A DNA stretch of 20,075 nucleotides from a virus, in the IMG/VR virus record IMGVR_UViG_3300035034_000343, positions 1 through 20,075 of that record; one strand, given 5' to 3'. Below, piece after piece: positions 6,665 through 18,966 of this stretch. The position numbers and the translations under genes were made by a program. Position 1 is the first letter of the stretch. Each line of letters starts with the position of its first letter. The notes beneath the pieces were generated by a model that had not been told where the DNA came from, did no database searches, and saw nothing but the letters and a program-made list of their open reading frames with translations.

Positions 6665-7537
6665 ATGAAGAAAAATTTGAAGAATCTCTTTTCCGAAGAT
6701 GTGCAGAAAATCCTAACAGATGAAACTCTCACTGCCATCGAAGAAGCCATCGAAGTTAAACAAACATTAGCAGTTGAATCTGCTCTTGCCACACAGGATG
6801 ATGAGTATGCTGAGAAGCTAAAAACACTCATCAAGTCCATCGATGCTGATCATACCGATAAAACTAAGCGTATTATGGAGGCTTATGATAAAGATAAGTC
6901 CGTGAAGCTTGTCAATCTCGTTAAGAAGTATGAGCGTGAGCAAGGTTCGGATCTACATAAATTTAAAAAGAGTATTGTCGAATCTGTAGGAGCTTTCATC
7001 GATGAATTTATCAATGAGTCAATCTCCAAAGAAGATCTCACACAAGCTGTTAATAATAAAGCCGCTTATAATGTCCTCAAGAATCTCCGTGGAGTTCTCG
7101 CAATCGACAGTGTAGTTATGAAAGAATCTGTTTCAGCCGGTCTTAAAGATGCTAAAGATAAAATTGATTCTCTTGTAGCTGAGAATGCCAAGGTTAAAAA
7201 TAATTTTAAAATTCTTAAAGAGCAAAAAGAAAATTCTGACAGAAAGTTATTCCTAGAGCAGAAAACTTCCAAATTCTCCGAAGATAAAAAGAAATTTGTA
7301 TCAAAGGCTCTTGGTGACAAATCGGCGGAATTCATCAAGGAGAACTTTGATTACACAATGCGTCTCTTCGATAAACAAGAGAAAAAGCAAATCCGAGTTA
7401 TTAAAGAAGAAGCGATTGAACGACGCTCTGTCAAGCCAGATTTTGTTAAGAATGAAAAAGTTCTAGCGGAAAAGGTAAATAATATCAAGGACGCATACGA
7501 TCCGTATGTTGCCGAAATGGAAAAAATGAAATTTTAA
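6665..7537 (+). CDS. 22: Prohead scaffold (core) protein, T4 gp22-like
   Basis: This 290-residue protein forms the internal scaffold on which the capsid shell assembles and which the gp21-type protease then degrades. It is almost entirely charged and helical with long coiled-coil stretches (about residues 55-110 and 165-255), rich in Lys and Glu and lacking Cys and Trp. Size and place (directly before the capsid gene, after protease and small core gene) match T4 gp22 (269 residues). Short (L/I)xE sequences such as AIEE-A near residue 27 and further ones in the C-terminal half could be protease sites. The sequence is poorly conserved in this family, so context carries much of the call. Confidence 0.85.
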   Translation: MKKNLKNLFSEDVQKILTDETLTAIEEAIEVKQTLAVESALATQDDEYAEKLKTLIKSIDADHTDKTKRIMEAYDKDKSVKLVNLVKKYEREQGSDLHKFKKSIVESVGAFIDEFINESISKEDLTQAVNNKAAYNVLKNLRGVLAIDSVVMKESVSAGLKDAKDKIDSLVAENAKVKNNFKILKEQKENSDRKLFLEQKTSKFSEDKKKFVSKALGDKSAEFIKENFDYTMRLFDKQEKKQIRVIKEEAIERRSVKPDFVKNEKVLAEKVNNIKDAYDPYVAEMEKMKF

Positions 7538-7600: not shown

Positions 7601-9067
7601 ATGAATAATATCCCACAAACACAAGTAAACGAAAGCAAAGTTCAAGGCATTGTTAATAAATGGCGTAAAGTTCTGGATTATACCTCTGATACAATCAAGC
7701 CAATCCAAAACGAACACACTTATAAATGTGCAGCTATGCTTCTCGAAAACCAAGAAAAGTGGTGTATCGAAGAAAGTAACGTCGGAGCTTCCGGTGGTGT
7801 CTTTGGCGCAACTCAATCCGTTGGATCGGGTATTGCGAACTCAGATTCCTACGCCGCAGGTGATGCACGTCTTCCTAAGATCCTCATTCCTATGATTCGA
7901 CGCACTTTCCCAGAATTGATCTCCAACGAAATCGTTGGTGTTCAGCCAATGGGTGGTCCAGTAGGACTCGCTTTTGCACTTCGTTACGCATACCAAGGGG
8001 ATACTCTTGGAACTGGTATCGATGGTAAAACCGTCCCTACAGGATCTCCTACTACTCGTGGTAACGGCTCGTCCGATTACACTGGTAACGCTGGACTCCC
8101 TAACGACGAAATGGGTTATCAACTTCTGGATACACGTTTCACTGGTACTTCCAGCGCATTCCTCTCCGGCCACGCCGAGTGGAGCTTCGCTGACCAAGAC
8201 CGTGGTGTTGCAGAACTTCTTGCTAATTACGAGCTGACCGGAAATATCCCTCAGATCGAGCTTAAGTTCGAAAAGACCGCTGTTGAAGCAGGAACTCGCA
8301 GACTCGCCACTCGTTGGTCTGTAGAACTTGAGCAAGATATCAAAAACATGAACGGTATTGATATCGACGGGGAACTCACTAACGCAATGTCGTATGAGAT
8401 CCAAGCCGAAATCGACCGCGAAGTTGTGATGCGTATGATCCAAACCGCGTTTAACGCTGGTTTTGGTGCTGGTTACTCCATCTGGAGTCCGGTTAGTGCT
8501 GATGGTCGTTGGACTGCTGAACGTAACCTTACATTCTATCAACGTCTTATCATCGAGGCTGGCCGTATGGCCGCTCGTAACCGCCGTGGTGCTGCTAACT
8601 TTGTTATCGCCACCCCTCGCGTTTGCTCCATTTTGGAAATGCTTCCAGATTTCAAAACTTTTGAAATCAGCGGAACTGTTACCACAACTGGTGTTGGTAT
8701 TGCCAAAGTTGGTACTGTCGGATCACGTTTCACCGTTTATCGTGATACAAGGACTGAAGTTCAGAATTCTTCCCTCTACTCGCCTAATTACTACACTAAC
8801 GCACCTAACGGTGGTGGTGGTGTTGAATACGCGCTCATGGGTTATAAAGGTTCTGAATACTACGACACAGGAATTATCTACTGTCCGTATATCCCTATCA
8901 TGGTGCAAAGGACTATTGGACCGAACGATTTCGCGCCTCGCGTTGGACTCATGACCCGTTACGGAATCGTGAACAACATCTTTGGTGCTGATCTCTTCTA
9001 CCATCTCATTATCGTTAAAGGACTCGGAACGGCGTTTACGCCCGGATCGACCTCCACTTATCTGTAA
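7601..9067 (+). CDS. 23: Major capsid protein, T4 gp23-like
   Basis: This 488-residue protein builds the capsid shell. The motif IVGVQPMGGPVGLAFALRY matches the T4 gp23 block CGVQPMNSPTGQVFALR, and the later MAARNRRGAANFVIATP and YKGSEYYDTGIIYCPYIP follow the same family order. A protease site of the T4 type is seen at I56-E57-E58 before S59, close to T4's cleavage after residue 65, so about 58 residues would be removed in the mature shell. Codons are visibly richer in C-ending forms (AAC, ATC, TAC, GGT) than in neighbouring genes, as expected for very high expression. It has a 63-base leader after gp22 with no TAAATA near the start, unlike most genes here, and contains a weak AGGG/CCCT hairpin at 7558-7572. 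A strong terminator follows. Confidence 0.97.
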   Translation: MNNIPQTQVNESKVQGIVNKWRKVLDYTSDTIKPIQNEHTYKCAAMLLENQEKWCIEESNVGASGGVFGATQSVGSGIANSDSYAAGDARLPKILIPMIRRTFPELISNEIVGVQPMGGPVGLAFALRYAYQGDTLGTGIDGKTVPTGSPTTRGNGSSDYTGNAGLPNDEMGYQLLDTRFTGTSSAFLSGHAEWSFADQDRGVAELLANYELTGNIPQIELKFEKTAVEAGTRRLATRWSVELEQDIKNMNGIDIDGELTNAMSYEIQAEIDREVVMRMIQTAFNAGFGAGYSIWSPVSADGRWTAERNLTFYQRLIIEAGRMAARNRRGAANFVIATPRVCSILEMLPDFKTFEISGTVTTTGVGIAKVGTVGSRFTVYRDTRTEVQNSSLYSPNYYTNAPNGGGGVEYALMGYKGSEYYDTGIIYCPYIPIMVQRTIGPNDFAPRVGLMTRYGIVNNIFGADLFYHLIIVKGLGTAFTPGSTSTYL

Positions 9068-9100: not shown

Positions 9101-9133
9101 AAAAACCCGAGGTTTAAACACCTCGGGTTTTTT
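9101..9133 (+). terminator. Intrinsic terminator after the capsid gene
   Basis: A perfect 13-base-pair stem (9101-9113 with 9120-9132, GC core CCCGAGG/CCTCGGG) with a 6-base loop, running into a T tract, starts 33 bases after the gp23 stop. Strong classical rho-independent terminator. Because the A/T arms are symmetrical it might also work on the minus strand, where no gene is seen to end. Confidence 0.9.
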
Positions 9134-9180: not shown

Positions 9181-9186
9181 TAAATA
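9181..9186 (+). promoter_or_regulatory. Late-promoter-like TAAATA before homing endonuclease 1
   Basis: GTTAAATA ends 5 bases before the ATG at 9192, downstream of the capsid terminator, so the endonuclease would have its own transcript. Confidence 0.55.
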
Positions 9187-9191
9187 ATTAT

Positions 9192-10661
9192 ATGGCGAAG
9201 ATTTATAAAACTGATGAGGTGGTTAAAAATTTCATTGAGGTTCATGGTGATAGATATGATTATTCTAAGTATGTATACCCCGGTAGAAAAGAACTTAAGG
9301 GTATTGTCATATGTTCTAAGCATGGGGAATTTGAAACATCTCGTATGCATCATATGAAAGGCATTGGATGTCCTGAGTGTGCTGGAGTTCCAAGAGGGGG
9401 GTTTAAACGTAAGAGTCGAGATCAATTCATGGTAGAATTAGAAGAGAAATACGACAAGTTTTCAGAATATGATTTTTCTAAGTTTGTATATAAAAATAAT
9501 ACTACTAAAGGTATTGTCATATGTCCTAATCATGGGGAATTTGAAATTACTCCAAAACACCTCATACGTCGTGGTTACGGATGCCCTGAGTGTTCAGGCA
9601 AAAAGAAATTAACATTGGAGGTTATACAGGATAGATTAGAGATTTCTAGATCTGAAAATATATACAAAATATCACCCGACCAGATATATATTAATAATAA
9701 AACTCCTATCAAAGTTTTATGTGAGATTCATGGTGAGTGGTTGGTAAGACCTGACAACCTCTTAAATTCTAATACAAGATGTCCAAAATGTTTTGGATCT
9801 ATATCTGGAATAGAATTGGAGATTTTAAATTTTGTGAAAGAGTGTGATCCATGCGTGGTAGGTAGTAGTAAAAAAATAATCTCCCCCATGGAGATAGATA
9901 TTTATTCACCAGTAAATAAATTAGCAATTGAGGTAAATGGGCTATATTGGCATGGAGAGATTAACGGAAAGGATGTGGGATATCATTTAAACAAGACTAA
10001 TAGATGTTTAAGTGAAGGTATAGATCTATTACATATATTTGAAGATGAGTGGATTAATAAGAAAGATATATGGAAATCCATGATTAGTAATAGATTTGGT
10101 ACGTCTGATAAGATTGGGGCTAGGAAATGTGAGATATTAAACGTCTCGTCATATAATTCGAATAAATTTCTAAATGATAACCACTTACAAGGAGAGTCTA
10201 AAGGATCTGTCAGGATGGGGTTATATTACAATGGATTACTTGTGGCTTTGCTTGTGATGGGTAAGAGTCGATTTGATAAAAGTGTAGAATGGGAAATACT
10301 TAGGTATGCTAATATTAGGAACATGTCCATCATTGGAGGATTCTCCCGCCTTTTCAAACATTTTAAAAATATATACTCACCGGAATCCATTGTAACATAC
10401 GCTGATAAGCGGTATTCTAATGGTAATTTATATAAAAAATGTGGGATGATTGAGAAGGGGGATAGTAGGCCAAATTATTATTACTTTAATAAGCATGAGA
10501 TGGTTCGTCACAGTCGGCATAAATTTCAGAAACATAAATTACCAGATATATTGGAAACGTTTAATATTGATAATTCTGAAAAGGATAACATGTTGATGAA
10601 TGGCTATGATCGTATTTGGGATTGTGGTAATAAGAAATTCTTGTGGACATCGGTTAAATAA
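9192..10661 (+). CDS. Free-standing Vsr-like homing endonuclease 1
   Basis: The frame is open further upstream, but the ATG at 9192 fits the TAAATA spacing and matches the paralogue's start, giving 489 residues. Three zinc-knuckle repeats (about residues 8-64, 76-133, 140-200) each carry C-x2-H-G-x-(F/W) and C-P-x-C (ICSKHGEF/CPEC, ICPNHGEF/CPEC, LCEIHGEW/CPKC). A nuclease core follows (about 203-300): MEIDIY, then LAIEVNGLYWHG and HIFEDEW, the pattern of Vsr-like PD-(D/E)xK homing enzymes known from split-intein loci of environmental phages. A C-terminal domain (about 310-489, ARKCEILNV, NHLQG, RMGLYYNG, GGFSRLFKHF) is of uncertain fold. Such enzymes cut uninvaded alleles so that their gene spreads. 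It lies between gp23 and a small virion gene, comparable to segD in T4. Confidence 0.8.
   Translation: MAKIYKTDEVVKNFIEVHGDRYDYSKYVYPGRKELKGIVICSKHGEFETSRMHHMKGIGCPECAGVPRGGFKRKSRDQFMVELEEKYDKFSEYDFSKFVYKNNTTKGIVICPNHGEFEITPKHLIRRGYGCPECSGKKKLTLEVIQDRLEISRSENIYKISPDQIYINNKTPIKVLCEIHGEWLVRPDNLLNSNTRCPKCFGSISGIELEILNFVKECDPCVVGSSKKIISPMEIDIYSPVNKLAIEVNGLYWHGEINGKDVGYHLNKTNRCLSEGIDLLHIFEDEWINKKDIWKSMISNRFGTSDKIGARKCEILNVSSYNSNKFLNDNHLQGESKGSVRMGLYYNGLLVALLVMGKSRFDKSVEWEILRYANIRNMSIIGGFSRLFKHFKNIYSPESIVTYADKRYSNGNLYKKCGMIEKGDSRPNYYYFNKHEMVRHSRHKFQKHKLPDILETFNIDNSEKDNMLMNGYDRIWDCGNKKFLWTSVK
10655..10660 (+). promoter_or_regulatory. Late-promoter-like TAAATA before the 124-aa virion-type gene
   Basis: GTTAAATA overlaps the stop of endonuclease 1 (TAA 10659-10661) and ends 5 bases before the ATG at 10666. 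The end of the mobile gene thus carries the next gene's promoter core. Confidence 0.55.
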
Positions 10662-10665
10662 TAAC

Positions 10666-11040
10666 ATGTCGCAACTTTACTCCTTCTACACCACCCTACT
10701 TTCCGCTGAAAAGACAGGAACTCCTAACTTAGTATCCCAATCTTTATCAGCATCAGGAGTCAATACAATCTCCCTATCTACTAACGACATAGGTATTTCC
10801 TTTACTCCGAATGACACTCTCACGGGAACACTTAAACTTACGACCATCGAAGGTTCCAAGTTTAATATCGACACGTCTTATAATCAAACGAATTCACAAA
10901 TGGTTCTTCTTAAGAATGATGGATCGGGAACAATCTTCCAATACGCATCCGCAGGAACCGTAGGAGTTGCCCTTTCCGCAGGATATAAAAGCTTTACTAC
11001 ATCCGAAAGCCGACGCAAGTGGGTTCTTGGATATCGTTAA
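10666..11040 (+). CDS. Small beta-rich protein, possibly a capsid accessory
   Basis: This 124-residue protein is rich in Ser, Thr, Asn and Gly with alternating hydrophobic residues (TISLSTNDIGISF, GTLKLTTIEGSKF, SGTIFQYASAGTVG), typical of beta-structured virion proteins. It ends in a basic, aromatic segment (SESRRKWVLGYR). I do not recognise a family. It lies after the capsid gene and before a strong terminator, so a decoration, vertex or head-fibre role is plausible but only from position. The open frame extends upstream into the endonuclease; the start was chosen for the TAAATA 5 bases before it. Confidence 0.65.
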   Translation: MSQLYSFYTTLLSAEKTGTPNLVSQSLSASGVNTISLSTNDIGISFTPNDTLTGTLKLTTIEGSKFNIDTSYNQTNSQMVLLKNDGSGTIFQYASAGTVGVALSAGYKSFTTSESRRKWVLGYR

Positions 11041-11063
11041 TCTCTCGCACGACACGCGCTCCC

Positions 11064-11097
11064 AAATCCCAAGAGGTTTCATTCCTCTTGGGATTTT
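11064..11097 (+). terminator. Intrinsic terminator after the 124-aa gene
   Basis: A perfect 13-base-pair stem (11064-11076 with 11084-11096, AAATCCCAAGAGG and its complement) with a 7-base loop ends in a short T run, 24 bases after the stop. It separates the head genes from the baseplate spike genes. Confidence 0.88.
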
Positions 11098-11166
11098 CTA
11101 TTGACGACCACGATATCATAAGGTTTGATTATCAGACCAGAATTATTGAAGTGGGATCGTGATGTT

Positions 11167-11172
11167 TAAATA
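11167..11172 (+). promoter_or_regulatory. Late-promoter-like TAAATA before the gp5-like OB-fold gene
   Basis: TTTAAATA ends 8 bases before the ATG at 11181. It lies downstream of the terminator and probably starts the baseplate spike transcript. Confidence 0.6.
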
Positions 11173-11180
11173 GGTATAGT

Positions 11181-11900
11181 ATGTTTATTCGTGGTGGAGG
11201 ATCGGGAGAAGAATACCGTAGAGTTGATCAAGCTCTTTATAGGGGGATTGTGGTCAAAAATAATGATCCCGCAAAACTCAACCGTGTGAAGGTTTATATC
11301 CCCGAATTATCCAATCAGCCATATGATGAATGGTTTGAAAAATATAAATCCATCAATTTAAGAAGTCCCGGCAAAAATAACGAAAATGATACTTGGAAAG
11401 ATACCAAGATATTTGATGAAATTGCCATAGGTATTCCATGGGCAGAACAGATGATGCCGATGTTTGGAGAATCAAACAACTCCAGATATTACTCGGAGGA
11501 TGAAATTGTTACCATATCTGATTGTAATTATGTTGAAGGATTTAGAGAGAACGACACCGAAGGTATCTCTTTGTCGTCAGGAGCCTTCTCCCCAGCCTTC
11601 TTGTATGAAAATGACTCTACAGTCATTGGAGATGCCTTCGGCTCACCCAATAGCAATTTCTCAGGTAAGTGTAATCCATATGCATTCTCATACAGACCAT
11701 CCAAACATGTCAACAAGCTCAAGGGTATTATAGGTATTCCAGAAGTGGGAGCTAAGGTATGGGTTACTCATTCTGGATCAGATTTGAATTTTCCAATTGT
11801 TATGGGGGCATATCAAGATTACAGATCTCTTACCCTACTAAACGATACTGATAATAAGAATAAAATATCCCCCACATATCCAAGTGATTTTGAGAATTGA
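11181..11900 (+). CDS. Baseplate hub OB-fold protein, gp5-like N-terminal part
   Basis: This 239-residue protein begins after a short glycine-rich leader with ALYRGIVVKNNDPAKLNRVKVYIPEL (about residues 18-43), the first strands of the OB fold found at the N-terminus of T4 gp5 and related hub proteins (pattern G-V-V-x-D-x-x-D-P-x-x-x-G-R-V-x-V). IGIPWAEQMMPMFG follows at about 83-96. The fold is completed near the C-terminus by GIIGIPEVGAKVWVTHSGSDLNFPIVMGAY (about 183-212). The middle is a low-complexity acidic/serine insertion. No lysozyme domain (T4 gp5 has one) and no beta-helix needle are present, so it equals only the first third of gp5. The needle-like part may be supplied by the gene at 12174. 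Confidence 0.7.
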   Translation: MFIRGGGSGEEYRRVDQALYRGIVVKNNDPAKLNRVKVYIPELSNQPYDEWFEKYKSINLRSPGKNNENDTWKDTKIFDEIAIGIPWAEQMMPMFGESNNSRYYSEDEIVTISDCNYVEGFRENDTEGISLSSGAFSPAFLYENDSTVIGDAFGSPNSNFSGKCNPYAFSYRPSKHVNKLKGIIGIPEVGAKVWVTHSGSDLNFPIVMGAYQDYRSLTLLNDTDNKNKISPTYPSDFEN

Positions 11901-11931
11901 CTTTTTATAATATATCATTAAATTATAATAT

Positions 11932-12135
11932 ATGAAAGATATTGAAAAGATAGCAGGTGAATTATATGAGACTTATTGTTTGGCGGTCGGAGGAGTAGCT
12001 TTTAATGGCGATGCACTTCCAACTTGGGAAGAATTTGGATCAGATTCGACCAAGACCAAGCAATCGAATGCGTGGAGGGCAGTTGCTAAAATATCTGGTC
12101 TCGACACATCATCTATTTTAGATGATGTGAAATAA
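11932..12135 (+). CDS. Small protein of unknown function (67 aa)
   Basis: The product begins MKDIEKIAGELYETYCLAVGG and continues with LPTWEEFGSDSTKTKQSNAWRAVAKISG. The W-E-E-F...AWRAVAK pattern resembles small phage proteins of about this size in which a helical pair surrounds a P-x-W motif; no function is known to me. It lies between the two spike-type genes. Upstream is a variant element, TAAATT (11919-11924), 7 bases before the ATG. Its N-terminus resembles the leader of the right-end proteins (D-x-x-x-I-x-G-x-L-Y), with LYE at residues 11-13. Confidence 0.65.
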   Translation: MKDIEKIAGELYETYCLAVGGVAFNGDALPTWEEFGSDSTKTKQSNAWRAVAKISGLDTSSILDDVK

Positions 12136-12161
12136 TTTCATGTCTTATTGACTGTGACACT

Positions 12162-12167
12162 TAAATA
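12162..12167 (+). promoter_or_regulatory. Late-promoter-like TAAATA before the spike gene
   Basis: CTTAAATA ends 6 bases before the ATG at 12174. Confidence 0.6.
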
Positions 12168-12173
12168 TCCCTG

Positions 12174-13760
12174 ATGGGAAAATATAAGAATAAAGTTGTT
12201 ATCAATCAACGTGGGGCATCCATTGATATCAACAACGGAACCGACGATGAGAGTATTAAGATTTCCCAAAGATCTGGAAGTAATATAGGAATCAATAATG
12301 TAGTAAATTCCGAGCTGGCCACAAATAACAAACAGGTCAATGTCATATCCGACGATTTCAAAACAGTTTTGGGAGAGTCTACTGAATTCGTTGGCAGAAC
12401 GAAGAATATTAGATCGGGGGAAGATGTATATGATATGTCCGGATTCAATACTCAGGATGAGTTGGATGCGATGGAAGAGTGGAAGGAACTTTATAGACCC
12501 GTAGCAAATTTAAATTCTCAATTTAAAATTAAAAGGGGGGGTTTTTCATATCCAAATGGAGTCGAAACCGAAAAAAAGGGCGATAGATTACCCAACCCAG
12601 TAATAGGATCTAGGGTTTTTACTGTCAACAATGCATTCAGTGGATATGATTCGGGGGTAGCCGTTAGATATAGTAATAAAGATGAAGTGGCCTCTTACCT
12701 TAAGGTTCCCGATAGAGGAAAGACCGAACCCGCCAAAGATTGGGAAATTACTAATATCGATGTCAAAAATTCAGCGGGAAATACGGGTTCGCAAGCCCCG
12801 GGAGTTATGGAGTTTGGGGAAATGGCGAGTGCTGCCACAGAAAATGGATCGTGGGATTTAAACGCCGAAGCCCAAAGTATTGTAGCTGCTATTTCAGATG
12901 TTCGAGAAGATCTACTACCCGTGGAACAGAGAATGGGTAATGGGGGCGACCGAGTATTATTCACCAAGATGAATAAGACTGAACAGGTGGGAGGGGCATT
13001 TAATGATTACCCATCCATCAGAATTGATGAAAAGGGTCGGAGTCAGCCTCTGGAACTCCTAGTTGGAAATACTGGGGCATTTAAAAATCATGATTATGTC
13101 CCTCATGTTGAGGAAATTGACAATTCTTCTAATTTCCCCGGCGGGGAGGATTCTAAAACCATTGGAAATAGACTGATGCGAAAAGTGGGGTCGGGAGGAA
13201 TTGATATAAAAACTCTGGGGTGTGTCGAAATCGGGGGAGCTACTTTAAAGGGTGGATTTAAAAAAATAAATTTAAACGCCTCCCATGGACTACATATCGG
13301 ATCTGAAAGTAATATTGAAATACAATCTCTCAAATCCATAACTCTGAGAACAAACCGACAGGTTTATGTAGAATCATCATTTGGAGTTAAGAATAACGTA
13401 ATCGTGGGTGGTGGACTATTCGTAGAAGGGGAGACATACGTCAATCATATAACTGCTCCCGTGGAAGTCCAACAAACAGAGGATGTTACAATATTGGGAC
13501 AATTTGCGACCGACTTCGATAGAAGACTTTTAATAGCTGAGTGCGAGATCGGGGGGGCATTTTATCCAGTGTATGCCTTGGCCAAGAAAGATATAATTAT
13601 AAATTACCCCCACTCCCACCACTTCAACAACATACCTCTTAGGTTAGTCGATTCAAATGGTAGAGTGAGGGTAAAGGCACAATTAGAGAATATCAATAAG
13701 CATAATACAATCAGTCAATCCCTTCCTCAAAGACATGAGAAAAGGAATGTTGAGGTATAA
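12174..13760 (+). CDS. Baseplate central spike protein, beta-helix type
   Basis: This 528-residue protein looks like the needle part of a T4 gp5/VgrG-type spike. The N-terminal 85 residues are short alternating strands (VVINQRGASIDINNG, ESIKISQRSGSNIGI, NVISDDFKTVLG, TEFVGRTKNIRSG) typical of intertwined beta-helices. The middle (about 90-340) is a large less regular region. A second beta-repeat zone follows (about 345-430: GGIDIKTLGCVEIGG, KKINLNASHGLHIGS, NIEIQSLKSITLRT, GVKNNVIVGGGLFVEG). Near the C-terminus PHSHHFNNIPL is histidine-rich and could bind a metal, as some spike tips do. It would trimerise at the baseplate centre and pierce the host envelope. The stop abuts the clpP stop directly. 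Confidence 0.65.
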   Translation: MGKYKNKVVINQRGASIDINNGTDDESIKISQRSGSNIGINNVVNSELATNNKQVNVISDDFKTVLGESTEFVGRTKNIRSGEDVYDMSGFNTQDELDAMEEWKELYRPVANLNSQFKIKRGGFSYPNGVETEKKGDRLPNPVIGSRVFTVNNAFSGYDSGVAVRYSNKDEVASYLKVPDRGKTEPAKDWEITNIDVKNSAGNTGSQAPGVMEFGEMASAATENGSWDLNAEAQSIVAAISDVREDLLPVEQRMGNGGDRVLFTKMNKTEQVGGAFNDYPSIRIDEKGRSQPLELLVGNTGAFKNHDYVPHVEEIDNSSNFPGGEDSKTIGNRLMRKVGSGGIDIKTLGCVEIGGATLKGGFKKINLNASHGLHIGSESNIEIQSLKSITLRTNRQVYVESSFGVKNNVIVGGGLFVEGETYVNHITAPVEVQQTEDVTILGQFATDFDRRLLIAECEIGGAFYPVYALAKKDIIINYPHSHHFNNIPLRLVDSNGRVRVKAQLENINKHNTISQSLPQRHEKRNVEV

Positions 13761-14390
13761 TTATCTAATTTCATCCACAAGTCCATAGTCCAAACACTCT
13801 TGAGCGGATAGATATAGATCATGTTTTAAAATCTCTTCTAGGCGTTTCATGGGAATTTTGGTATTCTCTTTGTAGAAATCCTTAAGGACTTTCATAAGCT
13901 TTTTGGTATCATTGAAACCACCTTCCAAGTCGGAGAATTTCCCATAAAGAACTGTAGACAATTCATGGACTAGCATGTATCCATACTTACCTATAAATCT
14001 TTTTTTACCAACGCATGAGATTAGAGTAGCCGCCGATGCTGCCAATCCATCTACGTATGTATATACATCAGTATTCATAGATTTTATTGTATCGACGGTT
14101 GAAAAGGCTGGGTATATCTCCCCTCCCGGTGATTGTATATGTAAATGTATGGTGGGTTTATAGTCCCCCCCCAGAGATAGCTTCAATGTTTGTATTTTTA
14201 AGTCCATGTCCATGAGACACTTATTAAGCTCTAAACATGATTCAGATGTGATATCATAGTAGAATAAAATCCTATTCTCAGTTGTCCTGATACTTCCCGA
14301 TCCATAAGACACATCATCTGAAGATGTCATTATATTGATTTGGGGGATTGGACTTTCCAAATCACCACTTGTCATTTTTTTATATTTCAT
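13761..14390 (-). CDS. clpP: ClpP-like serine protease
   Basis: This 209-residue protein has the ClpP fold signatures with a complete catalytic triad: Ser119 in DGLAASAATLIS, His142 in GYMLVHELSTV and Asp191 in KHDLYLSAQECLDYGLVDEI. IQSPGGEIYPA (about residues 86-96) is the substrate-strand region. Length is typical of ClpP. No ClpX/ClpA ATPase is in the window, so it may use a host partner, or act as a free peptidase or in virion maturation; the gp21-type protease already covers the prohead. It follows nrdA by 14 bases on the same strand. Start is uncertain: ATG 14390, or a second in-frame ATG five codons later (MTSGDLE), since TAAATA overlaps the first ATG. Confidence 0.85.
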   Translation of the reverse strand: MKYKKMTSGDLESPIPQINIMTSSDDVSYGSGSIRTTENRILFYYDITSESCLELNKCLMDMDLKIQTLKLSLGGDYKPTIHLHIQSPGGEIYPAFSTVDTIKSMNTDVYTYVDGLAASAATLISCVGKKRFIGKYGYMLVHELSTVLYGKFSDLEGGFNDTKKLMKVLKDFYKENTKIPMKRLEEILKHDLYLSAQECLDYGLVDEIR

Positions 14391-14404
14391 ATTTATTATT
14401 TTTA

Positions 14405-16051
14405 TTATTCACACGATGTGCAATTCAGAATATCTCTAGCTAACATTTGAGCCGGATTACTGGATCGTTGATAGTATAGAGATTTGAGTCCCTGTTCCCA
14501 AGCGAAGATCATAAGTTCATTAATTTCTTTAGGTTTTGCGGATGGGGGAATCATGAGATTCAATGACTGACCCTGATCGATATACTTTTGTCTAGCAGCG
14601 GCTTGGATGAGAATTTCTTTTTGTGAAATTTCTCCAAATGTTTTAAACACATCTTTTTCATGCTGTGTGAGAAAATCCAAGTGTTGGACGCTTCCCCCAT
14701 GGCTGAGAATAGATTTCCACGTCAAAGTATCATCTTTACCCTTTTCCCCTAGAAGATCTTTCAGCTTTCTATTCTTATATGTGAAATTTCCTTTGGCCAA
14801 AGCCTTCACGAAGTAGTTACTATTGAGAGGTTCGATGGATGGGGATACCTGACCGAGAATGAAACTACTACTTGTAGTAGGAGCCACGGCCAACATTGTA
14901 ACATTTCTTCTGCCATATCCTTTCAATAGTTCGGGTTCTCCGTAAAGAGTTGCGAGCTTTTTAGTTGCTTCGTCCGTTTTATCTTTAATGTTCTTCCAAA
15001 TTTCAATATTTAAAAACTTAGCATCCATAGATTCCCATGCAATCATTTTCGATTGAAGTAGATCGTGCCACCCAAGAACTCCAATTCCCAATGCTCTTTG
15101 GTTTTTTGCGAAGTTGTTTGCAGCTCCCATGAGATCATTATCTTCGGTTTTCTCGATGAATTCAGACATCACGGCATCAAGGAGAAATGATAAGACTTCA
15201 ATGGCATCGGTATCCTTCCACTCGTCCCATTTATCTAAGTTCATTGACGATAAATCACATACAAATGACTCATTATCAGTCGATTGCAAGAAAATCTCAG
15301 AACACATATTCGACGAATTGATCATACACCCTTTATCTTTATAAACTTGAGGCTTATTATCGTTTGCATTATCAGTGAAGAAAATATATGGATATCCACT
15401 TTCTGATCTTTTTTTGATGACTTTACCCCACAATGATCTTTTGGGTTTATCCCCATCAATCATGGACTGCATCCATTCGTTGGATACGCAAACACCGATA
15501 GACATTTCTTGAATCGTATGTCCCTCTCCCCTGATTTTTAGGAATTCTTCGATGTCTCCGTGATCGATTGGTAGGTATGCCGCGAAATGCCCCCTACGAG
15601 TGCTTCCTTGGCTGATAGAGTTGGTTACGTCATAGAACATCTCCATGACTCTCACTGCCCCTTCAGCCTTACCCCCAGTTGAAATAAGGGAACCCCTCGA
15701 CCTAACATCTCCAAAGTATCCAGAGGTTCCCCCTCCATACTTAGACATCATCCCAACCTCTGCTTGTTTTTTGAGGAAGTTGTAAACTGAATCTGAAATG
15801 TGGCTATTGAAACATGAAATCCCAAGACCCCTATTGTTACCAAATGAAATCCATATAGGAGTTGAAAGACTGTAGAACCCTCTGCTCATATAATCCTCGA
15901 ACTTATCAGAATATCCTTTTATTTTAAGAATTTTTTCTGCATTGTCTCCTATTTCTCTAACCCTTTGCTCCGCTGTTTGTCCATTTATTAGATAATCTCT
16001 GTCTAGAAAATTTCTAGAATCTTTATTAAGCCATTCGTATTTTTTATTCAT
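14405..16051 (-). CDS. nrdA: Ribonucleotide reductase large subunit, class I
   Basis: This 548-residue subunit converts ribonucleotides to deoxyribonucleotides for phage DNA synthesis. Conserved features are Cys80 (GISCFNS) and Cys265 (SFVCDLSSMNLDKW), the redox pair. The finger-loop motif N248-M-C250-S-E252 holds the thiyl-radical cysteine, Tyr526-Tyr527 (LYYQRSS) belong to the radical path, and C-terminal Cys544 and Cys547 (NCTSCE) form the reducible tail. It is much shorter than E. coli NrdA (about 760) because the ATP-cone activity-control domain is absent and loops are trimmed, as in other phage enzymes, so dATP inhibition is probably lost. N- and C-termini look complete; there is no intein. 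A variant TAAATT lies 7 bases upstream (16064-16059). Confidence 0.95.
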   Translation of the reverse strand: MNKKYEWLNKDSRNFLDRDYLINGQTAEQRVREIGDNAEKILKIKGYSDKFEDYMSRGFYSLSTPIWISFGNNRGLGISCFNSHISDSVYNFLKKQAEVGMMSKYGGGTSGYFGDVRSRGSLISTGGKAEGAVRVMEMFYDVTNSISQGSTRRGHFAAYLPIDHGDIEEFLKIRGEGHTIQEMSIGVCVSNEWMQSMIDGDKPKRSLWGKVIKKRSESGYPYIFFTDNANDNKPQVYKDKGCMINSSNMCSEIFLQSTDNESFVCDLSSMNLDKWDEWKDTDAIEVLSFLLDAVMSEFIEKTEDNDLMGAANNFAKNQRALGIGVLGWHDLLQSKMIAWESMDAKFLNIEIWKNIKDKTDEATKKLATLYGEPELLKGYGRRNVTMLAVAPTTSSSFILGQVSPSIEPLNSNYFVKALAKGNFTYKNRKLKDLLGEKGKDDTLTWKSILSHGGSVQHLDFLTQHEKDVFKTFGEISQKEILIQAAARQKYIDQGQSLNLMIPPSAKPKEINELMIFAWEQGLKSLYYQRSSNPAQMLARDILNCTSCE

Positions 16052-16073
16052 ATATTAAAATTTATAGATATTG

Positions 16074-16148
16074 TCAAATTAATTGATTTGTGTATTGCTC
16101 AACGTATTCTTCATCTAAGATTGTATCAATCGGAACATCATCTCGCAT
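16074..16148 (-). CDS. Tiny ORF or gene remnant between endonuclease 2 and nrdA
   Basis: A 24-residue frame reads MRDDVPIDTILDEEYVEQYT and ends NQLI. It looks like protein rather than random sequence (acidic, helical), yet it is too short to assign. It may be the surviving end of a gene displaced by the endonuclease, or a chance ORF. A second ATG at 16158 gives only a five-residue peptide. Its beginning lies inside a 10-base inverted repeat. Confidence 0.2.
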   Translation of the reverse strand: MRDDVPIDTILDEEYVEQYTNQLI

Positions 16149-16156
16149 GATGTTCC
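16132..16156. repeat. Perfect 10-bp inverted repeat, 5-base loop
   Basis: GGAACATCAT (16132-16141) and its complement (16147-16156) flank CTCGC. No T tract follows on either strand, so a simple terminator is unlikely. It lies 17 bases beyond the end of endonuclease 2 and upstream of nrdA, so it could shape the mRNA between them or be a protein-binding site. Confidence 0.6.
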
Positions 16157-16175
16157 ATAATTAATCTTGACTTAT

Positions 16176-17867
16176 TTAGTGGGATTTCATCCATTTATAT
16201 TTTTTATTTCCACAATCATAAATCCTGAAATAACCCAAATCTTTCATTATTTCTTTTTCGGTTTTTTCTTTGGGGAATCCTTTTGATACTAACACATCCT
16301 TTCTAAAAGTAAACCTATTATGTCTTTTTAATCCTTTGACATAAAAATAATTAGGATTGGTTAGATGTTTTTCCAAAAATCCCAATTGGATGTAGAGATT
16401 ACCTGTTCCGTAACGCATATTACAAAAAGATATTATATTATTTGGATTTCTTTTTTTAATGAAATTTTTGAAAAGTTTAGACGCTCCACCGACAACATTA
16501 TAATTTATCTTATTACAATATCGAAGAAGTTCATATTCGTCTTTTTCGGTTTCATTATTACCCATATTCTTTCTCTTTTTGCCGAAGGTCATTAAAGAAA
16601 CCAATTCACCATTATAGAACAACCCCATACGATGCTTCGATACACAAAACCCCTGTATGTGATTATCTATTAAAAATTTCTTGGCTGTTTTGTAGTCAAC
16701 TTCAAATATTGAACATTTACGAGCGAAAATTTTATTATTTGTTTTATTAAAAGCGTTTTGTAACATACTTTCACATATACTTCTATTGGATATCCATTCA
16801 TCTTCAAATATTTGAATTAATCGGTATCCTAAGTCATTCATCTTTTTTAATTTATCAGAGTGATAATTATTTGATTTAAAAATATCACTATGCCAATATA
16901 GTCCATTAAACTCAATTCCAATTTTATGACTCTCCGATAAAATATCAATTTCTTTAATATTTTCCATCCTTCTAACGCTTCCCTCTATATCGTCAATACC
17001 TATCGATTTTAAAAATTCTAAAATTTCCAATTCATATGAGCTTACGAATGATGTGCATTTGGGGCAGTGTCCCTTACCAGATACGTGGATGTAAGCTTTG
17101 ATCTTAAAATCTCCATGAATTGGGCAAGTTATCAACGCATCATCGTGTGATTTTGTATAAAATGTTTTATCATATGAATATTTTCCACCATGTAATGATT
17201 TAGACTTTTCTATGAAAGTGTCTAAATCATGTGTCATGTTTTCAACTTTACAATTCTTACATCCGAAAAAGATACTATCAAGTGCATTTCTCGGGGTGGT
17301 TTTATATTTTCCATGTGAGATGCATGTAGGATATATACTTGTTTGTAGATTTTTGAAATATCCAATATCACTAAAATTATATTTTTTGAAATTATCCTTT
17401 TCTGATAACCGTTCAATAAAATCATCACCAGTAGTTCTTAATTTATCAGCGGTTCTTATTTCACCACACGACGGACATCCCTGCTTATTGTTTATGTGAT
17501 TACTAGCCTTCATGGAAAATTTTCCATGAATCGGGCAGATAATATCAACATAATCTAAAGCGTGGGTATATATTACTGAAGTATAGTCATAAAAATCTCC
17601 ATGTATTTTTGTGGCCTTTTTTAAGAAGTATTCTATATCTTTGCGATGCCTGTTACCATTTGCTGCATTCACGCACCCCCTACACCCCCCGTTTTCTGTT
17701 ATTAGATGATTACTTGGAGTGGTTGTAAAATGTCCATGTTCTCTACATACAAAAGAGGTTGGGGTTGATGTGTTTTTATAAATTGTGTTATTGTAATCAA
17801 AACGTTCGGAGTGTTTTTTTATACATTTATCTATAAATTGTTCAGTTGTAACCGTAGGTTTTCTCAT
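16176..17867 (-). CDS. Free-standing Vsr-like homing endonuclease 2
   Basis: This is a 563-residue paralogue of endonuclease 1. I chose the ATG at 17867 rather than one eight codons upstream because TAAATA ends 5 bases before it. It has four zinc-knuckle repeats instead of three (CREHGHF/CRGC, CPIHGKF/CPSC, CISHGKY/CKNC, CPIHGDF/CPKC) over about residues 8-265. A Vsr-like nuclease core follows (KEIDILSESHKIGIEFNGLYWHS, then QIFEDEWIS), then the shared C-terminal domain (ARKCSIFEVD, NHIQGF, RMGLFYNGELVSLMTFGKKR, GGASKLFKNF, YDCGNKKYKW). It sits between nrdB and nrdA on their strand. Both nrd genes look complete, so it is intergenic, not an intron or intein insertion. Confidence 0.8.
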   Translation of the reverse strand: MRKPTVTTEQFIDKCIKKHSERFDYNNTIYKNTSTPTSFVCREHGHFTTTPSNHLITENGGCRGCVNAANGNRHRKDIEYFLKKATKIHGDFYDYTSVIYTHALDYVDIICPIHGKFSMKASNHINNKQGCPSCGEIRTADKLRTTGDDFIERLSEKDNFKKYNFSDIGYFKNLQTSIYPTCISHGKYKTTPRNALDSIFFGCKNCKVENMTHDLDTFIEKSKSLHGGKYSYDKTFYTKSHDDALITCPIHGDFKIKAYIHVSGKGHCPKCTSFVSSYELEILEFLKSIGIDDIEGSVRRMENIKEIDILSESHKIGIEFNGLYWHSDIFKSNNYHSDKLKKMNDLGYRLIQIFEDEWISNRSICESMLQNAFNKTNNKIFARKCSIFEVDYKTAKKFLIDNHIQGFCVSKHRMGLFYNGELVSLMTFGKKRKNMGNNETEKDEYELLRYCNKINYNVVGGASKLFKNFIKKRNPNNIISFCNMRYGTGNLYIQLGFLEKHLTNPNYFYVKGLKRHNRFTFRKDVLVSKGFPKEKTEKEIMKDLGYFRIYDCGNKKYKWMKSH

Positions 17868-17872
17868 GATAT

Positions 17873-17878
17873 TATTTA
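17873..17878 (-). promoter_or_regulatory. Late-promoter-like TAAATA (minus) before homing endonuclease 2
   Basis: GGTAAATA on the minus strand ends 5 bases before the ATG at 17867, between the end of nrdB and the endonuclease. Confidence 0.55.
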
Positions 17879-17919: not shown

Positions 17920-18966
17920 TTAAAATAACTCATCTTCGTCAAACGATTGATTTTTCTTAGAATAGTCAACGCTTCTTCCATGAAAAAAATCAACCATTGA
18001 GTTCCCATGTAATTGTTCTTCGAACCACATGGTATCATCCAATAGAGATTGATCAACCTCAAATACTTTATCAAATCCAATTTGTTCCATGGATTCGTTG
18101 ATGCGGTTTTTGACGAACTCTTTGAGTATATCCGCAGACAGGTGTTCCTTATTTACACCGTTCACCATCCAGTCGATCATTTTTGACTCCGCTTTGAAAG
18201 CCTCTTCAGCTTCGTGGTGAATTCTTTCTTCCAATTCCTTATCAAAAATCTCAGGGTGTTCTTTGCGAATAGTATTGATAATTTTTATACCAACCAAAGC
18301 GTGTATAAGTTCTTCATTTCTGGTGTATTTCACCTGTTGGTCGGTGTCCTTTAGGACATTCTTGTAAGTATTGAACCAATTGATGATATAAAACTGCGAG
18401 AATAGAGAAACGTTTTCAACAAATAATGTGAAAAGAATTAGTGCATATACATACTGTTTCTTAGAATCTTTATAAAATCTATGTGTATATTTTTTCAGAT
18501 ACTTAACCCTACCTTGAATCCATTCCAGTTTGAGGTTTTCCTCGAATACATCATTAAGATCTAGAACATCCAACAAACGCTCATATGCGTTATTATGAAT
18601 AACTTCCGTGTTGGCCATAACGTATCCTAAATCCTGTAACGCTGGATGGGGGAGATTATCTCCAAGCTTTGACCAGAATGTCTTAACTGCCACTTCGATT
18701 TGTCCAATAGCTGATAATGTTCTAACTACAATTTCCCGCTCTTGATCGTTTAGAACGGTTTTAAATTGGTGTACGTCTGACTTGAATGAAAATTCCCTAT
18801 CAGTCCAAAATCCATCATGCATCGCATTTATGAACTGAACCGTCCATGGATATTTGTTGGGTTTTCTGCTCGTCTGCTCTTCAAAAATGCTATGTGTGTC
18901 TTTTCCCATGTCGTTCTTCAGCACTATATCATTATCCATAAAATTGTCAATCATCTGATTCATCAC
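17920..18966 (-). CDS. nrdB: Ribonucleotide reductase small subunit, class I
   Basis: This 348-residue subunit carries the diiron centre and tyrosyl radical used by NrdA. Likely metal ligands are Glu91 (IGQIEVAVKTFW; Asp in E. coli), Glu121 and His124 (NTEVIHNNAY), Glu184 (FVENVSLFSQF), and Glu219 and His222 (NEELIHAL). Tyr128, four residues after His124, is in the place of the radical Tyr122 of E. coli. The acidic tail ending SFDEDELF should dock on NrdA. Start: GTG at 18966 gives the usual promoter spacing (6 bases), ATG at 18963 is nearly equivalent. It is first in the minus-strand order nrdB, endonuclease 2, nrdA, clpP. Confidence 0.95.
   Translation of the reverse strand: MMNQMIDNFMDNDIVLKNDMGKDTHSIFEEQTSRKPNKYPWTVQFINAMHDGFWTDREFSFKSDVHQFKTVLNDQEREIVVRTLSAIGQIEVAVKTFWSKLGDNLPHPALQDLGYVMANTEVIHNNAYERLLDVLDLNDVFEENLKLEWIQGRVKYLKKYTHRFYKDSKKQYVYALILFTLFVENVSLFSQFYIINWFNTYKNVLKDTDQQVKYTRNEELIHALVGIKIINTIRKEHPEIFDKELEERIHHEAEEAFKAESKMIDWMVNGVNKEHLSADILKEFVKNRINESMEQIGFDKVFEVDQSLLDDTMWFEEQLHGNSMVDFFHGRSVDYSKKNQSFDEDELF

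Follow-up and report, generated by a model that had tools for sequence, protein, structure and literature searches.

Probable free-standing Hef-like homing endonucleases with Mom-like C-terminal domains beside the capsid and ribonucleotide reductase genes of a T4-type phage

In phage T4, the GIY-YIG endonuclease SegD is encoded beside gene 23 and antisense to it (PMC2988022), and the HNH endonuclease MobE lies between the two ribonucleotide reductase genes, in the order nrdA-mobE-nrdB. In phage U5, Hef replaces mobE between nrdA and nrdB (Sandegren 2005, cited in PMC2988022 and PMC3322345). Hef and MobE cut nrdB (PMC2988022), Hef-like genes form a tabulated class in T4-like phages (PMC2993671; PMC3296691), and the presence of different nuclease classes at one site has already been described (PMC2988022; PMC10448857). 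Here we consider two genes, endonuclease 1 and endonuclease 2, which lie in these two neighbourhoods in IMG/VR virus record IMGVR_UViG_3300035034_000343. The window, that is, the whole stretch of DNA analysed, comprises 20,075 nucleotides, and all coordinates are given as positions 1 to 20,075. It derives from a T4-type phage whose gp23 is less than 60% identical to that of all isolates of the phage collection, and family searches identified portal gp20, gp23, a baseplate OB-fold protein, ClpP, nrdA and nrdB among its genes.

Two other groups of described enzymes bear on these genes. Certain phage-intron endonucleases carry CapR/DUF4379/DUF723-like repeats followed by an EDxHD/Vsr nuclease, which is described as the C-terminal domain (PMC12350094). 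In jumbo phages, fusions of a Mom domain with a restriction endonuclease (REase)-fold nuclease have been read as restriction-modification enzymes, with five momylating enzymes counted in phage PA5oct, in a paper that uses neither 'homing endonuclease' nor 'Hef' (PMC7824862). A literature search, with most subscription papers outside it, found nothing that joins Mom with homing endonuclease, acetyltransferase and phage.

Both endonuclease genes are intact open reading frames (ORFs) with complete nuclease motifs, located behind gp23 and between nrdB and nrdA, as a preliminary description of the window had placed them. Endonuclease 1 starts 124 bases 3' of gp23, past the gp23 terminator and co-oriented with gp23, while endonuclease 2 is transcribed in the same direction as both of its neighbours; an Rfam search found no intron in the window. 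That description had also equated the two places with the segD and mobE sites of T4, which is right as regards the neighbourhoods (gene 23; the nrdA/nrdB pair) but not the layout, since the nrd order is reversed here (nrdB-endonuclease 2-nrdA) and T4 segD is antisense whereas endonuclease 1 is co-oriented with its capsid gene. Nor is a Vsr-like nuclease at the nrd site the novelty it was taken for, Hef having been reported there in the published texts available (PMC2988022; PMC3322345).

Both enzymes match the homing-endonuclease families PHROG 559 and 3339 near full length (E 6e-98 to 8e-126). The phrog_559 matches (E 7.7e-126 and 5.3e-119) bear the label 'HNH endonuclease', which is a name only, the nuclease here being of the EDxHD/Vsr type, and a Pfam search found no GIY-YIG or HNH domain in either enzyme. 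By tblastn, relatives occur in 949 (endonuclease 1) and 891 (endonuclease 2) phage records, many of them annotated as Hef-like homing endonucleases; as IMG/VR queries, the single sequences returned few or no relatives, which was solved by using alignments as queries. Like U5 Hef, with which they could be compared by description only, the window enzymes are free-standing; the nrd gene order differs, and the available passages on Hef in PMC2988022, PMC3322345, PMC2993671 and PMC3296691 make no mention of a Mom-like domain. The zinc-knuckle arrays noted earlier are present as three modules in endonuclease 1 and four in endonuclease 2, and the N-terminal modules of both match DUF723, CapR and DUF4379.

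The Vsr-like nature of the nuclease is likewise borne out. A profile of 46 relatives matches the EDxHD nuclease I-Bth0305I (structure 3r3p; E 1.9e-9), and Pfam Vsr and REase_MTES_1575 match 10 and 29 of the 46, respectively. Across 153 non-redundant relatives, the catalytic-type residues are nearly invariant (D236 100%; E247, H254 and K268 99%; H265 95%). I-Bth0305I is encoded in an intron, however, whereas the window enzymes are free-standing, and their nuclease stands between an N-terminal zinc array and a C-terminal Mom-like domain. The CapR-EDxHD/Vsr intron enzymes (PMC12350094) share the module order, but in the window enzymes, and in AR9_g146 of phage AR9, a GNAT domain follows the nuclease. 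From placement, allele pattern and family, we consider both genes very probably to be free-standing (intronless) Hef-like homing endonucleases.

The C-terminal domain had gone unmentioned in the preliminary description. The last ~180 residues of each enzyme adopt a GNAT fold in confident AlphaFold2 models (predicted local distance difference test, pLDDT, ~97 for endonuclease 2), and for both models Foldseek ranks phage Mu Mom first (8bv8; E 4.5e-6 and 9.3e-7). With VIA-align, Mu Mom 8bv8 gives Z 13.0 over 145 residues for endonuclease 1 and 13.6 over 163 for endonuclease 2, scores which other GNATs equal; it is the sequence evidence that appears to single out Mom among GNATs. The Mom family PF25680 matches 21 of 46 relatives (best E 2e-9), and a hidden Markov model (HMM) of the endonuclease family scores Mu Mom above all of 20,000 shuffles, albeit weakly (E 0.026), aligning family residues H331, E368, R371, D405, R407 and Y414 with H58, E108, R111, D149, R151 and Y157 of Mu Mom. 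Endonuclease 1 carries all six. Among 153 relatives, H331, Q333, R371, G382 and Y414 of the pocket are conserved at 94-98% and E368, D405 and R407 at 84-90%. Among 261 ORFs extending to the end of the nuclease model, 252 have the domain, in a sample biased to full-length relatives. Over 34 pairs of relatives, the GNAT part has a median ratio of nonsynonymous to synonymous substitution rates (dN/dS) of 0.10, against 0.13 in the nuclease; not all pairs are independent, some coming from the same contigs, and the values are hence indicative of purifying selection on the Mom-like domain. Sequence and model thus predict, at the end of each enzyme, a Mom-like GNAT domain whose pocket is conserved. 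Mu Mom itself has this fold, and residues of it align with pocket positions of the family, yet it is a stand-alone DNA modifier with no nuclease and is remote in sequence (13-14% identity).

Neither site is fixed: the pattern named beforehand as a refutation, in which all relatives would carry both genes and no allele would be empty, is not what the loci show. The nrd genes are directly adjacent, with nrdB before nrdA at a distance of 4-60 nucleotides, in 70 fetched loci representing 38 distinct alleles, and nine fetched loci have an insert between them. HNH-type inserts (HNH plus NUMOD3) are found antisense in L095 and L116 and sense in L121 and L145, and GIY-YIG-type inserts in L126, L127 and L141, these classes coming from family searches on L121, L126 and L095 and from sequence likeness for the remaining ones. 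At both sites, GIY-YIG calls are based on PHROG homing-endonuclease matches together with the visible motif, Pfam having given NUMOD3 only or nothing. L140 has a SET-domain gene between nrdB and nrdA (6967-7371), and L083 a 142-residue gene with no family match. An independent second case of the order nrdB-Hef-nrdA comes from a divergent phage (L220), with a Hef-like gene 20 nucleotides behind nrdB; at the nrd site of Escherichia coli T4-likes, Hef was absent in all four genomes examined. Another locus (L176, contig G002) has a LAGLIDADG intein of ~389 residues within nrdA (13390-14560), a Hef-like gene on the immediate 5' side of nrdB and, behind gp23, an endonuclease 1-type gene.

The gp23 site is empty in about ten loci (L007/L136, L011, L014, L017, L018, L087, L119, L120 and L162). 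An endonuclease 1-type gene occupies it on the same strand in L006 and L385 and, together with a GIY-YIG-type gene, on the opposite strand in L003. Vsr-GNAT enzymes with a different N-terminus stand there in L008, L013, L015, L016, L019 (DUF7487) and L388, and the closest relative found (L386; gp23 89%) has a different, inverted Vsr-GNAT enzyme. Cargo other than nucleases also occurs behind gp23 (L004, L012), in the form of 177- and 666-residue genes. In L012 and L015, an antisense gene of 665-666 residues with no assigned function lies behind gp23, alone or beside a Vsr-Mom enzyme. Endonuclease presence and absence varies between relative genomes, one of which holds both an intact Hef and a decayed copy with three in-frame stops (G004:C1:2631-3176). 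Given empty, filled and swapped alleles at both sites, both sites turn over. Unrelated nuclease families repeatedly occupy the same two sites, and the earlier proposal that free-standing homing genes are drawn time and again to conserved capsid and nrd genes is upheld by HNH, GIY-YIG-type, Hef-like and other Vsr alleles and by at least ten independent changes, on the endonuclease tree, of the position behind a gp23-type capsid gene.

In a tree of 159 relatives (a quick tree with 56 weak forks), endonuclease 1 groups with L172/L003-type enzymes and L006, all behind gp23 (support 98), while endonuclease 2 falls inside another clade of 48 rows (support 99). The two are 37% identical over 487 residues (E 8e-92). 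In view of the tree, 'homologous' fits better than the 'paralogous' first applied to them: the homology stands, whereas paralogy within the genome does not. A recent in-genome duplication as the origin of the pair is ruled out by these separate clades. A count restricted to loci retrieved by way of the endonuclease comprised 158 distinct Hef ORFs. Fifteen of these have a gp23-type capsid gene no more than 1 kb away; every one of the 15 stands 3' of that gene, and for 12 the distance is at most 300 nucleotides. The capsid-3' position requires 15 changes on the tree, at least ten of them forced by well supported branches, compared with 20.9 when the labels are shuffled (none of 500 shuffles was this low); the tree thereby indicates that lineages persist at this site and that it is also recolonised.

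The family has similar positions in very different phages. PA5oct, an unrelated jumbo phage, has exactly five Hef-like matches, all reaching the model end and all with a GNAT domain; one follows the major head gene at a distance of ~120 nucleotides, a second follows the tail sheath gene and a third lies between two DNA polymerase pieces. Like the jumbo-phage fusions of PMC7824862, these combine a Mom-family GNAT domain with an REase-fold nuclease, and from count and architecture we infer that they are the five momylating enzymes of that paper. In AR9, two Hefs lie behind RNA polymerase genes and one within an RNA polymerase gene.

By analogy with known homing biology, the zinc modules would recognise an extended target, situated within or next to the capsid or nrdB/nrdA gene of a co-infecting phage. 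The Vsr/EDxHD domain would then break this target, and repair would copy the endonuclease gene, along with the flanking DNA, into the recipient. Expression would come from late promoters of the phage itself, by way of upstream TAAATA motifs. This motif, which we take to resemble the T4-type late promoter, lies no more than 16 nucleotides upstream of 13 of the 21 gene starts in the window, both endonucleases included (among them the starts at 785, 5681, 9192, 10666, 12174 and 17867), and of 16 of 874 ATGs overall, which points to late transcription of both genes from promoters of their own. Since TAAATA lies within 16 nucleotides of many start codons, late transcripts may be nearly leaderless. 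Much less certain is the role of the Mom-like domain, which might acylate adenines near the target and so mark donor DNA against re-cutting or competing nucleases; we regard this step as tentative. The wider reading that the Hef-like family as a whole combines a homing endonuclease with built-in DNA marking, the Mom-like domain modifying adenines within or close to the target, such that donors are protected with the target gene intact and the element is a selfish restriction-modification system spreading by homing, is equally speculative.

Several observations weigh against this account. The spacers of the nearest empty alleles are too divergent to fix exact junctions and cut sites, the mapping of which had been proposed. 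PF25680 gave no match to endonuclease 1 on its own, and its match to the isolated endonuclease 2 domain (E 5.2e-5; 23.4 bits) is below the gathering cut-off of 27.1; for this reason we describe the domain only as Mom-like. When the whole record was searched with PF25680 at the DNA level, nothing was found either, so that the Mom claim rests on the isolated endonuclease 2 domain, the relatives and structure. At the GNAT-pocket position where D is conserved (D405), endonuclease 2 has N. Finally, an AR9 RNA polymerase gene with Rfam group I and group II intron hits contains AR9_g146, in which the Mom-like domain is present. The domain hence does not track free-standing life, given also GNAT-less copies with no detected intron, and a self-protection model limited to free-standing genes is weakened. 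In the same AR9 gene, AR9_g147 (L379 4035-4943), annotated as a group I intron VSR, does not extend past the nuclease and has no Mom-like domain. The idea that GNAT-less members are the intron-encoded ones was unsupported, as AR9_g146 has the domain and GNAT-less copies elsewhere have no nearby Rfam intron.

The strongest rival reading, to which we give a little under an even chance, is that the Mom-like domain is no longer an enzyme and that an ordinary homing endonuclease has kept the GNAT fold for DNA contact or dimerisation. The N at D405 recurs in Ah1 and in one PA5oct enzyme, other pocket residues vary in some PA5oct copies, and the remoteness from Mom agrees with such a loss; the conservation of pocket residues at 84-98%, the six identities with Mu Mom and the low dN/dS argue otherwise. 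Somewhat less probable, although a serious contender, is the idea that both sites are hot spots merely because an insertion that follows a terminator or separates two operon genes is tolerated, with the flanking genes not being targets. The SET-domain gene at the nrd site and the 177- and 666-residue genes behind gp23 would be expected if so, but tolerance does not readily explain why Hefs are packed close and on one side behind capsid genes across very divergent phages, and published Hef and MobE do cut nrdB (PMC2988022).

The restriction-modification interpretation given to the jumbo-phage fusions (PMC7824862), five of them in PA5oct, where all five matches are complete and carry the GNAT domain, suggests a third alternative: a single-protein weapon in which the Mom-like domain shields the phage's own DNA and the nuclease attacks the DNA of the host or of a superinfecting phage. 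For the window genes we think this improbable. The setting is the one expected of mobile genes: members of the family adjoin or interrupt essential genes, some alleles are empty, and in others an HNH or GIY-YIG-type enzyme takes their place. The long zinc arrays, moreover, suggest rare, long targets; rival exclusion and homing are, however, not mutually exclusive. That both genes are relics, domesticated or dead endonucleases, is very unlikely, for although the decayed copy in G004 shows that decay occurs in the family, both ORFs are intact with full nuclease motifs and the family is under purifying selection.

The features of the two loci are collected in Table 1. The insertion zone at the first is the spacer 3' of the gp23 terminator. 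The terminator loop is GGTTTAAACACC in the window, whereas a CCGAAG-type loop is common to the aligned relatives, whether filled or empty. At the small gene behind endonuclease 1, a TTAAATAATAAC-ATG motif overlaps the endonuclease stop codon. The inverted repeat between endonuclease 2 and nrdA is perfect, with 10-bp arms and a 5-nucleotide loop, and adjoins a 24-residue ORF; this ORF was considered as a remnant of another gene, and no match was found.

Table 1. Positions of the two probable homing endonuclease genes, their predicted domains and neighbouring features in the window.
Feature	Position	Strand	Basis
gp23 major capsid gene, neighbour of endonuclease 1	7601..9067	+	PF07068 E 1.7e-83
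Intrinsic terminator of gp23	9101..9132	+	Equivalent hairpin in aligned relatives, filled or empty
TAAATA late-promoter-like motif, directly 5' of endonuclease 1 start	9181..9186	+	Motif scan
Endonuclease 1, probable Hef-like homing endonuclease, 489 aa	9192..10661	+	Intact ORF, PHROG match
Endonuclease 1, three CxxHG...CxxC (DUF723/CapR-type) modules, predicted DNA-binding array	9192..9800	+	Residues 41, 111, 177
Endonuclease 1, Vsr/EDxHD nuclease domain	9801..10106	+	E208 D236 E247 H254 H265 D285 present
Endonuclease 1, Mom-like GNAT domain	10107..10658	+	Predicted structure, family alignment
Small gene 3' of endonuclease 1	10666..11040	+	Orthologue borders empty site in relatives
nrdA, large ribonucleotide reductase subunit, 548 aa	14405..16051	-	PF02867
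Inverted repeat GGAACATCAT-GCGAG-ATGATGTTCC, between endonuclease 2 and nrdA	16132..16156	-	Sequence
Endonuclease 2, probable Hef-like homing endonuclease, 563 aa	16176..17867	-	Intact ORF, PHROG match
Endonuclease 2, Mom-like GNAT domain	16179..16742	-	PF25680 E 5.2e-5; predicted structure
Endonuclease 2, Vsr/EDxHD nuclease domain	16743..17048	-	3hrl Z 12.8; profile match; motif equivalents of endonuclease 1
Endonuclease 2, four CxxHG...CxxC modules	17049..17867	-	Residues 41, 111, 182, 248
TAAATA late-promoter-like motif 5' of endonuclease 2	17873..17878	-	Motif scan
nrdB, small ribonucleotide reductase subunit	17920..18966	-	PF00268

Taken as members of their family, neither gene is unusual. 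Hef at the nrd site, several nuclease classes per target gene, CapR with EDxHD/Vsr and Mom-REase fusions are all already published, and the useful result is the joining of the Hef homing-endonuclease and Mom-REase restriction-modification readings, two separate literatures which appear to describe the same proteins. The one-sided packing behind the capsid genes of very divergent phages is clear, can be quantified, and shows one kind of site being occupied repeatedly. Provided that the Mom-like domain is active, homing genes without introns would carry their own mark of self. It would then become directly testable, in isolates such as PA5oct and AR9, by what means a free-standing homing endonuclease leaves its own genome uncut although the target gene there is uninterrupted.

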